DNA from: a bacterium
GTDB lineage: Bacteria > Actinomycetota > Acidimicrobiia > Spongiisociales > Spongiisociaceae
NCBI GenBank assembly: GCA_028821235.1
Contig: JAPPGV010000130.1
Coordinates: 1 to 58,755 of the forward strand
DNA: 58,755 nucleotides
Direction: 5' to 3'
Below, piece after piece: positions 937 through 51,031 of the stretch. The notes under the pieces were generated by a model. The model was not told the origin of the DNA. It saw nothing but the letters and a program-made list of their open reading frames with translations, and did not search any database. The position numbers and the translations under genes were made by a program. The stretch's first letter is position 1. Each line of letters opens with the position of its first letter.

Positions 937-2211
937 TCAAGGTCTCAGCGCGGTCAGGGGCACCACCGCCACCCCGTCGTCGGCCTGGTAGCCGGGCCCG
1001 AACGCCGTCAGCACGATCAGCCGCGCCGGCTCGCCGCGCCGGACCGTGTCCACCCGGGAACGCACGGCTCTCAGGGAATCCATGGCCCTCTTGACGGCCG
1101 ATGCCCCTCCGAGCTTGATCTCCACAGCGGCCCAGCGACCGTCGAGACCGTCGATGACGGCATCGGCCTCCAGGTTCCTCTCATCCCGGTAGTAGTACAG
1201 ATGCGCTCCCATCGCCTGGGTGTATACCCGAAGGTCGCGCACCGCCATCGACTCGAACAGCAAGCCCATCGTCTCCAGATCTCGCTCCAGAAACGCCGGG
1301 GAACCTCGCAGCGCGGCAACTGCCAGCGCAGGGTCGGCGAAGTACTTCTTGGGGGTCTTCCTCAGACGGGACGCCGATCTGAGATGAGCGAACCAGGCCG
1401 GTAATGGCTCAATCACGAAAAGGCGGGCGAGTTCGTCCAGGTAGGCCCCGATGGTTGAACGAGCGGGTGCTCCGGCACCCGCTTCGGCCAGATCGGCCTG
1501 CAGAGTGGCGATAGATGCTGTGGTGGCCTCGTTACGAGCAAGGGACGCGAGCAGGTCCGTCACCATCCGCGGGTTGCGTCTTACTCCTGCAACACGGGAG
1601 ATGTCGATGCGGGCGATATCGCTCAGGTAGTCACGGAGGCGAGCCTGCGCGGTGCCAGCGGCCATCCCGATCATGCGAGGCCACCCTCCGCGACAGATGA
1701 GGGACGCCAAGTCGCTGATAGTCCGGCCCATGTCCGGCGCTCTGCATCGACCACCCTCCAATAGCGATGACAGAGACACCTCGCCGGTGGAGTCGCCGGA
1801 TTCCCACAACGCCATGGGTCTCATACGTACACGGGCGACCCGCCCCGCGCCGGAGTGCTCGGTGAGATCGTCCGGGGGATTCTGCGAGCCCGTGAGTAGG
1901 AAGTGTCCGAACCCTCCCCGCCGGTCGCAGGCGCGGCGCATCGGATTCCAAATGCCGCGGACCAGCTGCCACTCATCCAACAGTCGCGGTTCCTCGCCCG
2001 CCAGTATCGAGTCCGGGTCCACTTCGGCGGCGATCCGGAGGGCTTCCGACCCGTCCAAGAAGATCTCGCTACGAGCGAACCTCTGCCCGGTCCAGGTCTT
2101 GCCACAGCCTCGCGGGCCCTCTATGAGCACGGCGGGTGACGAGGCTAGAGCTGCGGCTACCTCGGCGTCCACCGCTCGATCCAGATAATCGGGACTCCCG
2201 TGATCGACCAA
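937..2211 (-). CDS. AAA-type ATPase with DUF4143 C-terminal domain
   Basis: The 424-residue protein has a P-loop (GPRGCGKT, residues 32-39), a Walker B strand (RLLDEW, about 76-81) and a sensor-like LLTGSQNP near residue 105, the typical AAA_14 order. The C-terminal half has the DUF4143 layout and ends with a nuclease-like strand pair (RNLEADAVIDG then AAVEIKLG). The start is TTG at 2211, preceded by GGAGGAG. The family is widespread, often in accessory DNA, and its role is unproven. The gene is monocistronic and has four regularly spaced direct repeats just upstream (2242-2319). A defence, toxin-like or mobile-element role is possible but is inference only. Confidence 0.85.
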   Translation of the reverse strand: MVDHGSPDYLDRAVDAEVAAALASSPAVLIEGPRGCGKTWTGQRFARSEIFLDGSEALRIAAEVDPDSILAGEEPRLLDEWQLVRGIWNPMRRACDRRGGFGHFLLTGSQNPPDDLTEHSGAGRVARVRMRPMALWESGDSTGEVSLSSLLEGGRCRAPDMGRTISDLASLICRGGWPRMIGMAAGTAQARLRDYLSDIARIDISRVAGVRRNPRMVTDLLASLARNEATTASIATLQADLAEAGAGAPARSTIGAYLDELARLFVIEPLPAWFAHLRSASRLRKTPKKYFADPALAVAALRGSPAFLERDLETMGLLFESMAVRDLRVYTQAMGAHLYYYRDERNLEADAVIDGLDGRWAAVEIKLGGASAVKRAMDSLRAVRSRVDTVRRGEPARLIVLTAFGPGYQADDGVAVVPLTALRP

Positions 2212-2241
2212 GGCTCCTCCACAGGGCTGGTTGGCAAACTA

Positions 2242-2319
2242 CACTTTGGGACGATTCTACACTCCACTTTGCGAGTGATCTGCAATGCACTTTGCGGAGT
2301 TCATGCACTCCACTTTGCG
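2242..2319. repeat. Four direct repeats of CACTTTGNG at exact 23-bp spacing
   Basis: Plus-strand copies start at 2242 (CACTTTGGG), 2265, 2288 and 2311 (CACTTTGCG each), so every step is 23 bp, close to two helical turns. Copies two and four share the preceding TC; copies two and three are followed by purine-rich AGTG or GAGT. On the ATPase strand the motif reads CGCAAAGTG. The block lies 31-108 bp upstream of the TTG start of the DUF4143 ATPase and downstream of the stop of the next gene, so it occupies that gene's promoter region. It could be an operator for a cooperatively binding protein, perhaps the ATPase itself. Confidence 0.8.
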
Positions 2320-2376
2320 AAACATGGTGTCGTTCGGGCTGTGGGAGGCGGGAGGGACTCGGGGGGTCGACTTCGC

Positions 2377-3375
2377 TTACGGATCGAGGCCGAGGAGTTT
2401 CCTGGGATTGGTCCTGACCATCTTGCGGATGTCCTCGGCCGGCACGCCCAGGTCGAGGAGGCAGGCGATGAACTCGCGTAGGCCTTCGACCGGCGCCGGC
2501 AGGGTGTACCCGCCGAAGTCCGTCGCCAGGATGCAGTGATGCGTTCCCACCTGCCGCATCTGCTCGGCGGACTTCCTGATGCCGCCGCTCGCCTCCCCCG
2601 TCATCTCCTCGTCCGCCGCGTACGCCAGCTCTACGTAGTAGTGGGTCTTGGGGATCGACGTGGTGTGCGTGTAGGCACCCAGGGTGTACTCGATGAAAGC
2701 GCCCCTCCGGGCCATGTGCCGGAGCTGGTCCGTCGAGGCAGCCTGGGTGACGGCGGTGGCTACCAGCACGTTACCGATGCCGTACTCGTGTGCGAGATCG
2801 ACCAGGCGGATGGCCTCCTCGGGCGAGACGTGGCCCGTGTTCAGGAAGACACGGGGATGGTCCGAGATGACGCTCAGGATCTCGTCCAGTTCGGGCCCCG
2901 CCGGCCCTTCAACGGGGATGCGGATGGACCGATCCACCTCCTCCCTCCTGAACTCCGGGTACAGGTCCTTCAGTGGTGTGAACTTCCCGTCCACGATCCG
3001 GCCCTCCCTGGAGGCCTGGTAGTAGGTGGAGTGGGCGCCGAAGCTGATGAACCTGGCGCCATCGCCGTACCCGATCGCCGTCTTGACAGCCCGAGGGTTC
3101 AGGCCGCCGTACGCGGTATTGAGGATCAGACCGCCGTAGACCGTGAAGTCGGGCACGGCCCGGTTCACGATCCAGGCGATCCCGTTGCTCATCTGGAAGA
3201 CGTCCATCAGCACGATGGCCCTCATGCCTGCGTCCCGGGCCTCGATGGCCGCCTCGATGGGGTCCAGCCGTCGCGGGCTGCTGGGCAGGTGCGGGGTGGC
3301 GTGGACGTGGATGTCTATGGCACCTTCGAGAAGCTGCCGGGACAATTCGAAGGAACGGTTCTCGGGCAACATCAT
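2377..3375 (-). CDS. Metal-dependent TIM-barrel hydrolase (DUF6282/amidohydrolase-like)
   Basis: The 332-residue product starts close to an IDIHVHATPH metal-binding strand (His 23, 25 and 29), the hallmark of amidohydrolase-type TIM barrels. Later barrel-strand signatures are VFLNTGHVSPEEA and a C-terminal ILATDFGGYTLPAPVEGL with the expected catalytic-type Asp. The overall layout fits the DUF6282 family. It ends with a helix reading IRKMVRTNPRKLLGL, like the C-terminal tail of many amidohydrolases. Cytosolic; substrate unknown. The truncated haemoglobin gene lies 19 bp upstream on the same strand, so the two are probably co-transcribed. Confidence 0.7.
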   Translation of the reverse strand: MMLPENRSFELSRQLLEGAIDIHVHATPHLPSSPRRLDPIEAAIEARDAGMRAIVLMDVFQMSNGIAWIVNRAVPDFTVYGGLILNTAYGGLNPRAVKTAIGYGDGARFISFGAHSTYYQASREGRIVDGKFTPLKDLYPEFRREEVDRSIRIPVEGPAGPELDEILSVISDHPRVFLNTGHVSPEEAIRLVDLAHEYGIGNVLVATAVTQAASTDQLRHMARRGAFIEYTLGAYTHTTSIPKTHYYVELAYAADEEMTGEASGGIRKSAEQMRQVGTHHCILATDFGGYTLPAPVEGLREFIACLLDLGVPAEDIRKMVRTNPRKLLGLDP

Positions 3376-49384: not shown

Positions 49385-50864
49385 GCCGCAATGGAGGGAC
49401 AGCCCTCAAGCTGCCCGAATCACGCCGGTGTGATCGCCGACGAACACCCCGCTTTCACGCCGCAATGGAGGGACAGCCCTCAAGCTGCCCGATGGGGCGG
49501 TCGTGAGCACACCCCGTAGGTGTACCCGGTTGCCGCCAGGGTCGGACAGTTTCAAGCTGCGCGAATGCCGTCTCCCACTGCAATCGGATCCTGCCGGAGG
49601 ACTTACCGCAATGGAGGGGCAGCGCTAGAGCTACCCGAACCCCTTCCTGAGCCTCGTGGAACACTGTGTAGGCCCGGCCGCAATGGAGGGGCAGCGTTGA
49701 GGCTACCCGAGCTTGTACGGCTCCAGTCCCCGCTTCGACCAACTCCCCAAGCCGCAATGGAGGGGCAGCGAAAACGCTGCCCGACCCACGCCGCGCAGGA
49801 ACCCGCGGGCCGGTATCTCGGTGCCGCAATGGAGGGGCAGCGAAAACGCTGCCCGACCCGACCTCGCGCAATGGGTTAGCGTGGCGGCAATGACGCCGCA
49901 ATGGAGGGGCAGCGAAAACGCTGCCCGACCCGACCTCGCGCAATGGGTTAGCGTGGCGGCAATGACGCCGCAATGGAGGGGCAGCCATAACGCTGCCCGA
50001 CCCACCGTGGCCGACAACGGCTCGCTGGAAGGCCTCGGCCGCAATGGAGGGGACCTCACCCACCGCTCTCGGCCCCGCGGAGGAACCGCTTGCCGCAATG
50101 GAGGGGCAGCGAAAACGCTGCCCGACCTTTGGACCCCTACGCCCAGGGCGTCCGCCCGCTGCTTGCCGCAATGGAGGGGCAGCGATGACGCTGCCCGACC
50201 ACCTCATCAAGAAGAGCCAGCAAGACATGCTGCCGCAGCCGCAATGGAGGGGCAGCGATGACGCTGCCCGACCCCCTCGTGCTGGGTGACCCCGAGCCCG
50301 AGCCCGAGCATACCCGCCGCAATGGAGGGGCAGCGATGACGCTGCCCGACCGCGCAACTGATAAACGAGCGCCGCATGAGCGTCCACGAGCCGCAATGGA
50401 GGGGCAGCGATGACGCTGCCCGACCCGACCTCCGACATTTGGGCCACCAACCCGCAAACGACGCCGCAATGGAGGGGCAGCGATGACGCTGCCCGACCCG
50501 GTTTCTTCTGGGCGGGCGGTTTCTTCTGGGCGGCGCCGCAATGGAGGGGCAGCGATGACGCTGCCCGACCGCGGACCGTCAGATCGCCGGGCCCCTGTCG
50601 GTCGTCCAGCCGCAATGGAGGGGCAGCGATGACGCTGCCCGACCTCGGGTTCGGTACCGGTGGTCCGGCGATACAGGTGGGCGCCGCAATGGAGGGGCAG
50701 CGATGACGCTGCCCGACCGCGCGCCGGATTCTGACGCTGGCGATTGTGTTCGGTGCCGCAATGGAGGGGCAGCGATGACGCTGCCCGACCCGCCTTGCGG
50801 GGGCTCTGCATCCGCAGCCAGAACGGGTGCCGCAATGGAGGGGCAGCGATGACGCTGCCCGACC
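49385..50864 (-). CRISPR. CRISPR array, 21 repeats of 36 bp (type I-G)
   Basis: Plus-strand repeats begin GCCGCAATGGAGGGG and end GCTGCCCGACC. Repeat starts: 49385, 49459, 49532, 49605, 49677, 49751, 49823, 49895, 49967, 50038 (15-base half only), 50092, 50165, 50238, 50316, 50390, 50463, 50535, 50609, 50683, 50755, 50829. Spacers are about 35-42 bp. A central inverted repeat (GGGCAGCG...CGCTGCCC) forms the crRNA hairpin. Repeats 12-21 are identical with loop ATGA (plus strand); 6-8 and 11 have AAAA; 9 has a CATAA variant; 1-5 are degenerate. The leader and cas2 are on the right, so transcription is on the minus strand. Confidence 0.97.
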
Positions 50865-51031
50865 CGCTCGCTCTATAACCTAGCTCTGACATGGGGCTTT
50901 GCCATGGGTTGCGAGGGGTGGCGACCAACGGGCATCAGGCTACGTGATTTGGTTGTCAAGGAGCCTTAAAACTGTATGCCACCTGGGTTCGAGCGCTGGG
51001 CCGCCTTGGTGTCGTCACCCAACCGCTCGCA
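50865..51031 (-). promoter_or_regulatory. CRISPR leader
   Basis: The 167 bp between cas2 and the first intact repeat are less GC-rich than the surroundings. On the minus strand there is a TTGACA at 50959-50954 and a TTATAG at 50878-50873, but they are 75 bp apart, so they would not form one promoter. The cas operon may read through into the array. The strict repeat identity beginning at 50829 fits this being the end where new spacers are added. Confidence 0.7.

Follow-up and report, generated by a model that had tools for sequence, protein, structure and literature searches.

A 23-bp direct-repeat array before a DUF4143 ATPase gene and its probable recognition by the encoded protein

The repeat array and its counterparts before related genes

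What are short direct repeats in front of an ATPase gene for, and which protein reads them? The question is raised by a window of 58,755 nucleotides (the whole stretch of DNA that was analyzed), in which CACTTTG copies lie at plus-strand positions 2242, 2265, 2288, and 2311, in steps of exactly 23 bp. A sequence-only reading of this DNA had reported the four repeats with this spacing and these positions, and it was right. In self-alignments of positions 2191 to 2350, lag 23 scored 27; 2,000 dinucleotide shuffles averaged 8.0 and never exceeded 17.8. When 604 segments of the window served as controls, none had 22 or 23 as its best lag with a score of at least 14. Exact GCAAAGTGNANTG occurs at only three sites in the 3.6-Mb genome, all of them in the window array, the fourth copy being deviant; likewise, CACTTTGCG is present in three exact copies, and the copy nearest the gene reads CACTTTGGG. 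The same reading had set the copies on nearly the same face of the helix, which is wrong. Because 23 bp amount to 2.19 turns (10.5 bp per turn), each step rotates the copy by ∼69 degrees, or ∼206 degrees from first to last, and the copies trace a shallow helix.

The window array thus consists of four polar direct repeats 5′ of the ATPase gene, which lies on the minus strand. Written on the gene strand and in the phase of the family, these are the distal unit 1 (TCGCAAAGTGGAGTGCATGAACT, 2298 to 2320), unit 2 (CCGCAAAGTGCATTGCAGATCAC, 2275 to 2297), unit 3 (TCGCAAAGTGGAGTGTAGAATCG, 2252 to 2274), and the proximal, more degenerate unit 4 (TCCCAAAGTGTAGTTTGCCAACC, 2229 to 2251); in the family scheme, the unit is TCGCAAA-GTGGAGT-GTAGAA-TCG. 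Unit 4 ends 17 bp from the ATPase start codon, a TTG that together with a GGAGG ribosome-binding site occupies 2209 to 2220 on the minus strand (start inferred). A scan for sigma-70 promoters and terminators over 2150 to 2420 recognized none, so the overlap of array and promoter is one of position only.

The source genome has 13 DUF4143 genes, most of them with a different array just 5′ of the start codon, and for most of these upstream regions the best lag in the self-alignment scan was 23. Among 80 named relatives drawn from many phyla, lag 23 was found at a z score above 4 in 60, and lag 46 in 3 more. Acidimicrobiia, Gammaproteobacteria, Gemmatimonadota, Bacteroidota, Clostridia, Spirochaetes, Elusimicrobia, Nitrospirota, Chloroflexi, and Methanomassiliicoccaceae archaea are among the sources of the relatives with 23-bp arrays. 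Overall, this class reaches across about ten bacterial phyla plus the archaea. Over 179 family loci, the significant lags were 23 (112 loci), 22 (12 loci), 32 (9 loci), 33 (2 loci), and others (3 loci), and about 40 loci had no significant array; with loci pooled, 135 of 218 had a 23-bp array. The canonical short DUF4143 type (L002) had none. The search before other DUF4143 genes that the sequence-only reading had proposed therefore recovered the period in 112 of the 179 loci, with differing unit sequences. That reading had also named orthologs without repeats as a result that would tell against it, and orthologs of 77 to 99% identity retain the array, also in other neighborhoods. Arrays hold about three to five copies and end a median of 26 bp from the start codon (78 loci; the relatives are mostly metagenome-assembled genomes, with inferred start codons). 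Like the window array at 17 bp, they stand where an operator would be expected, 5′ of the reader's own gene and near its start.

Spacing follows the protein. Most of the 32/33-bp class belongs to a protein clade of its own, the tree requiring 5 changes versus a shuffled mean of 10.8, and a single genome can hold several classes, distributed by protein clade: lags of 22, 32, and 23 in one (G214) and of 23, 33, and 23 in another (G221). Such differing spacings for differing clades inside one genome speak against a host factor shared by the arrays. In the 23-bp class, the units lack palindromy in all but 1 of 112 cases, and the 22- and 32-bp classes are often palindromic pairs. Tandem palindromes at 22 or 32 bp take the place of direct repeats upstream of four loci from other DUF4143 subclades (L007, L014, L088, and L113). 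The arrangement suggests a dimeric reading mode for these arrays.

To what extent are the units alike? An alignment of 86 units by circular shift, made without protein information and setting the unit phase, gave a common polar consensus with a power of 2.05 versus 1.63 ± 0.03 with random strand, far above both controls. Positions 16 to 22 of the unit form a constant YKSCAAA box, and positions 8 to 12 an A-rich TRAAA stretch. Positions 1 to 6 are an address, with an identity of ∼0.75 to 0.89 within an array and ∼0.26 to 0.34, which is near random, between arrays. Unit sequences differ among paralogs, and every tested paralog of one genome has an address of its own: six arrays of the source genome are mutually orthogonal, each scoring 18 to 36 with its own profile and at most 9 with any other. 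In a genome search for trans targets, the window motif and the L012 motif stayed at control level outside their own arrays.

The ATPase and its covariation with the repeat unit

The gene behind the array (937 to 2211, minus strand) encodes a protein of 424 amino acids with AAA_14, winged-helix, and DUF4143 (PD-(D/E)XK) parts. Both Pfam domains score above their curated cutoffs (DUF4143, 102.9 bits versus 28.1; AAA_14, 41.6 versus 27), and the PADLOC model for PDC-S01, PDLC04790, matches residues 8 to 422 with an E value of 2.8e-63. An AlphaFold2 model built with 77 homologs (pLDDT 93.5, pTM 0.93) has a secondary structure that fits an AAA+ domain, a helical linker, a winged helix (residues ∼210 to 290), and a PD-(D/E)XK-like C-terminal domain. 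On the minus strand, the AAA+ domain (residues 9 to 135; Walker A G32..GK38, Walker B D79 E80) is encoded at 1807 to 2187, the winged-helix region at 1342 to 1584 (domain limits inferred), and the DUF4143 domain (residues 291 to 424) at 940 to 1341. In the 135 array-bearing homologs, the Walker residues are almost invariant, as are the putative active-site residues among ungapped homologs: E348 in 132 of 132, D350 in 130 of 131, E364 in 126 of 126, and K366 in 123 of 125. The protein thus has the residue pattern of a PD-(D/E)XK nuclease and is a predicted nuclease.

Closest to the model among solved folds are two archaeal ATPases, 2qen (Z 14.8) and 2fna (Z 13.3), followed by NLR/CED-4-type assemblies. 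Foldseek lists DNA-bound Cdc6/Orc1 as well; the Orc1/Cdc6 structure 2qby has an E value of 6.4e-05 but a TM score of 0.27, and 2qen and 2fna are closer. A sequence search of the PDB gave matches at the P-loop level only, PHROGs gave no relevant family, and NCBIfam gave no match. The VIA list holds no nuclease match for the C-terminal domain; it barely covers that part, and we do not count it as evidence.

Whether this protein reads the repeats can be asked of the family as a whole. Motif similarity followed protein identity on the same strand (rho 0.21) and not on the reverse complement (−0.06), and a region-wise comparison singled out no domain (top partial correlation 0.18, residues 136 to 209). 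Only column-wise covariation on the aligned units pinpointed protein positions. Using 135 arrays (effective number 105), one MAFFT alignment, and a FastTree topology, the strongest pairs of residue and unit position by MI-APC z score were 344-17 (12.2), 252-3 (10.1), 344-18 (7.9), 251-2 (7.5), and 282-18 (7.1), compared with maxima of 4.6 to 6.4 in permuted controls. In the model, residues 250 to 252 open the recognition helix, residue 282 is in the wing, and residue 344 is in a DUF4143-domain loop, four residues before E348. The corresponding codons lie on the minus strand at 1456 to 1464 (250 to 252, at the N terminus of the recognition helix, covarying with unit positions 2 to 4 in the address box), 1366 to 1368 (282, an arginine, covarying with position 18), and 1177 to 1182 (344 and 345, covarying with positions 17 to 19).

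The associations amount to a code. At residue 344, K, R, or H goes with G17 (36 of 44), N with T17 (28 of 28), and D or E with C17 (23 of 25); R or K at residue 251 goes with G2 (40 of 47) and R at residue 282 with G18 (52 of 67). These pairings are chemically sensible and of a familiar kind, with N344 and T17 placing an A on the opposite strand. Shared ancestry was addressed with a tree built without the covarying columns, in which independent pairs gave 9.1 versus 0.5 for K/R/H344 and G17, 8.2 versus 0 for N344 and T17, and 9.3 versus 0 for R/K251 and G2; mismatched controls were near balance or not significant. The pairs 282-18 and 252-3, and D/E251 with C2, point in the same direction, but their tree-corrected sign test alone misses 0.05. 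Between proteins less than 60% identical, residue 344 predicted base 17 correctly in 82 of 116 cases (baseline, 46), and unrelated residues did not predict it. The window follows the code, with E344 and C17, R251 and G2, and R282 and G18.

Altogether, because its residues covary with the bases of the unit, we regard it as very probable, judging from sequence, that the ATPase recognizes its own array, presumably with one protomer per unit. Because the covarying loop beside E348 belongs to the DUF4143 domain, the predicted nuclease domain would sit on the array. The sequence-only reading had expected cooperative binding by an oligomer and had named the ATPase as a possible binder. Clade-conserved spacing and residue-base covariation strongly support the first as a likely mode of binding, and the same two observations, spacing that goes by protein clade and residues that covary with unit bases, strongly favor a part for the ATPase itself.

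In all, the array probably serves the ATPase whose gene follows it as a private operator and as a site of assembly. At the level of sequence, this reading is backed by the array itself, its fixed spacing and polarity, its co-transfer with the gene (see below), the paralog-specific addresses, and the covariation at predicted contacts, the last of which indicates that the repeats would be recognized by the gene's own product. Each 23-bp unit would bind one protomer in an orientation that is constant relative to the gene. The recognition helix of the winged helix (residues 250 to 252) would read the 6-bp address box; the bases on either side of the constant CAAA box would be read by the wing (282) and the DUF4143-domain loop (344 and 345). 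In this arrangement, three to five protomers would lie head to tail, at a 23-bp pitch, over the promoter region, where the bound ATPase may repress transcription of its own gene. That autoregulation is the purpose of the array is likely from its position, and we hold this less firmly than recognition of the array by the ATPase. ATP-dependent assembly on the array may further set the protein level and restrain the conserved nuclease site, and release may serve a defense-type function, as the PADLOC listing suggests.

Locus mobility and alternative explanations

Array and gene appear to have moved together. Homology to an ortholog of 82% identity with a different upstream neighborhood (L135) spans 932 to 2320 on the minus strand, with unit 1 at one end and a point slightly beyond the stop codon at the other. 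Of five cases with differing neighborhoods, three have homology that begins inside the array or at its margin (exactly at unit 1 for L135) and ends at the stop codon. As these bounds are the array and the stop codon, array and gene form one cassette by sequence comparison and behave as a single transferred unit. The window gene is flanked by the conserved chromosomal genes DUF6282 (2377 to 3375, minus strand, present in most of the genus) and DUF1801, and the segment 796 to 2376 (minus strand) is missing from the relative G006, where these neighbors are about 16 bp apart.

Other arrangements occur between the same neighbors. G002 and G007 (L250 and L251) have a different single gene there, a ∼1.43-kb insert with a secreted-protein-like open reading frame of ∼430 amino acids, and G005 has both inserts in tandem, with the end of DUF6282 duplicated. 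In G001 (L252, just after the DUF6282 stop codon) and G010 (L256, ∼1235 to 1320), the flank is kept with one degenerate CGCAgAGTGGAGT-type repeat, followed by unrelated sequence; both breakpoints lie just past the first repeat core.

Could the array instead be a DNA antidote or sensor that keeps the nuclease-ATPase inactive, so that its loss, occupation, or damage (through plasmid or gene loss, or phage takeover) frees an active nuclease, with transcriptional control secondary? Across array-bearing homologs, the predicted PD-(D/E)XK and ATPase residues hardly vary; the loop adjoining the putative catalytic residue E348 covaries with base 17; the gene is transferred with its array as a cassette; and the fold is near NLR/CED-4-type assemblies. 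A nuclease restrained or licensed by the array would agree with the conserved active site and with a DUF4143 loop predicted to lie on the DNA. However, G001 and G010 have no gene at the site and keep a single repeat, which means that loss is survivable, and we consider this explanation unlikely, though the best of the alternatives.

Still less probable is a mobile element of a single gene that would use the array for recombination, transposition, or replication, for example as an iteron origin or a transposon end. The insert is polymorphic for presence between DUF6282 and DUF1801, the homology block of L135 begins exactly at unit 1, lone degenerate repeats mark the G001 and G010 breakpoints, and direct repeats of 22 to 23 bp resemble plasmid iterons. 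However, a search of 65 loci for another array, close to the 3′ end or in the flanks, gave 18 outside matches versus 14 in a reversed control, which makes a two-ended transposon unlikely, and conserved chromosomal genes stand on both sides. Among 2.9 million viral contigs, each scan found only 7 family loci. At the window gene there is no transposase, Pfam giving AAA_14 and DUF4143 only, and neither two matching ends (65 loci) nor a transposase marks it as a DNA transposon. An iteron replicon was likewise rejected: Pfam reports no Rep domain in the window protein, the gene lies between conserved chromosomal genes, and the insert is missing in one relative. The transposition-like site considered by the sequence-only reading is therefore not supported, there being no second end and no further copies of the window units nearby or in the genome.

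It is very improbable that a host regulator rather than the ATPase binds the repeats. Operators before defense genes are often read by separate regulators, but here each tested paralog in one genome has its own address, spacing tracks the ATPase clade in bacteria and archaea alike, and unit bases covary with ATPase residues, all of which already contradict such a regulator. A chance tandem repeat or a functionless product of local slippage has practically no probability: the nearly identical units of two arrays (L139 and L175) indicate that slippage or homogenization does occur, but the shuffle and genome controls, the exact 23-bp period, its recurrence in 112 of 179 relatives, and the diverged units already refute this explanation.

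Relation to known systems

How does a private operator of this kind compare with known arrangements? Plasmid iterons are direct repeats, tandem and polar, that recur about every two helical turns next to a gene for a winged-helix initiator, and the window array is also tandem, polar, spaced at about two turns, and beside the gene of its probable winged-helix reader. In contrast to iterons, the window array has no Rep protein or replicon context, the reader is an AAA+/PD-(D/E)XK protein, the neighbors are chromosomal, and the addresses are private to paralogs. The products of toxin-antitoxin and restriction controller genes bind paralog-specific repeats in their own promoter region, most often a single palindrome or a pair recognized by dimers, whereas the family arrays have three to five non-palindromic units (1 of 112 palindromic) at a strict 23-bp pitch. 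An AAA+ domain with a winged helix, as modeled for the window protein, would also be the arrangement of SSO1545 (2fna), PABY2304 (2qen), and, less closely, Orc1/Cdc6 (2qby), which marks replication origins; the alignments to archaeal ATPases extend only to about residue 300, and the C-terminal DUF4143 domain lies outside them. In its mode of working, the system most resembles iteron arrays and autoregulatory operators, and by membership this is a PDC-S01/DUF4143 protein.

PDC-S01 is a PADLOC candidate for single-gene phage defense, most PDCs being unvalidated, and is counted as the fourth most common prokaryotic “defense system,” with 29,494 bacterial and 9,986 archaeal cases, in the accessible passages of PMC12988326. 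The window protein resembles it by the model match (E value, 2.8e-63), as a fusion of ATPase and PD-(D/E)XK domain, as a single gene, and in its occurrence in bacteria and archaea. Neither a cis array nor DNA specificity nor regulation comes up in the same passages. In 5.39 million open papers, we found no description of such arrays: “23-bp direct repeats” returned nothing relevant, PDC-S01 came up in three papers whose accessible passages are silent on arrays, and DUF4143 came up in one, within a table of genes changed by plasmid presence.

It is tempting to extend these results to the whole of a large stand-alone ATPase-nuclease family, with tens of thousands of PDC-S01-annotated genes. Such a family would work via self-addressed arrays, each serving as an antidote or as a platform for assembly by which the nuclease is licensed or restrained, with a protein-DNA code insulating the paralogs and with spacings of 22, 23, and 32/33 bp as mechanistic classes. 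We offer this generalization as a doubtful one. For PDC-S01, the analysis provides a probable, defined ligand in DNA, a hypothesis on stoichiometry (one protomer for each 23 bp), and a residue-to-base code with named residues, and private addresses give a reason why many paralogs can coexist in one genome.

Elsewhere in the window, positions 49602 to 50868 hold a CRISPR-like array with 17 copies of a 36-bp repeat, GCCGCAATGGAGGGGCAGCGATGACGCTGCCCGACC, in steps of 72 to 78 bp (one of 125); its spacers are mostly unique, and the first two repeat copies are degenerate.
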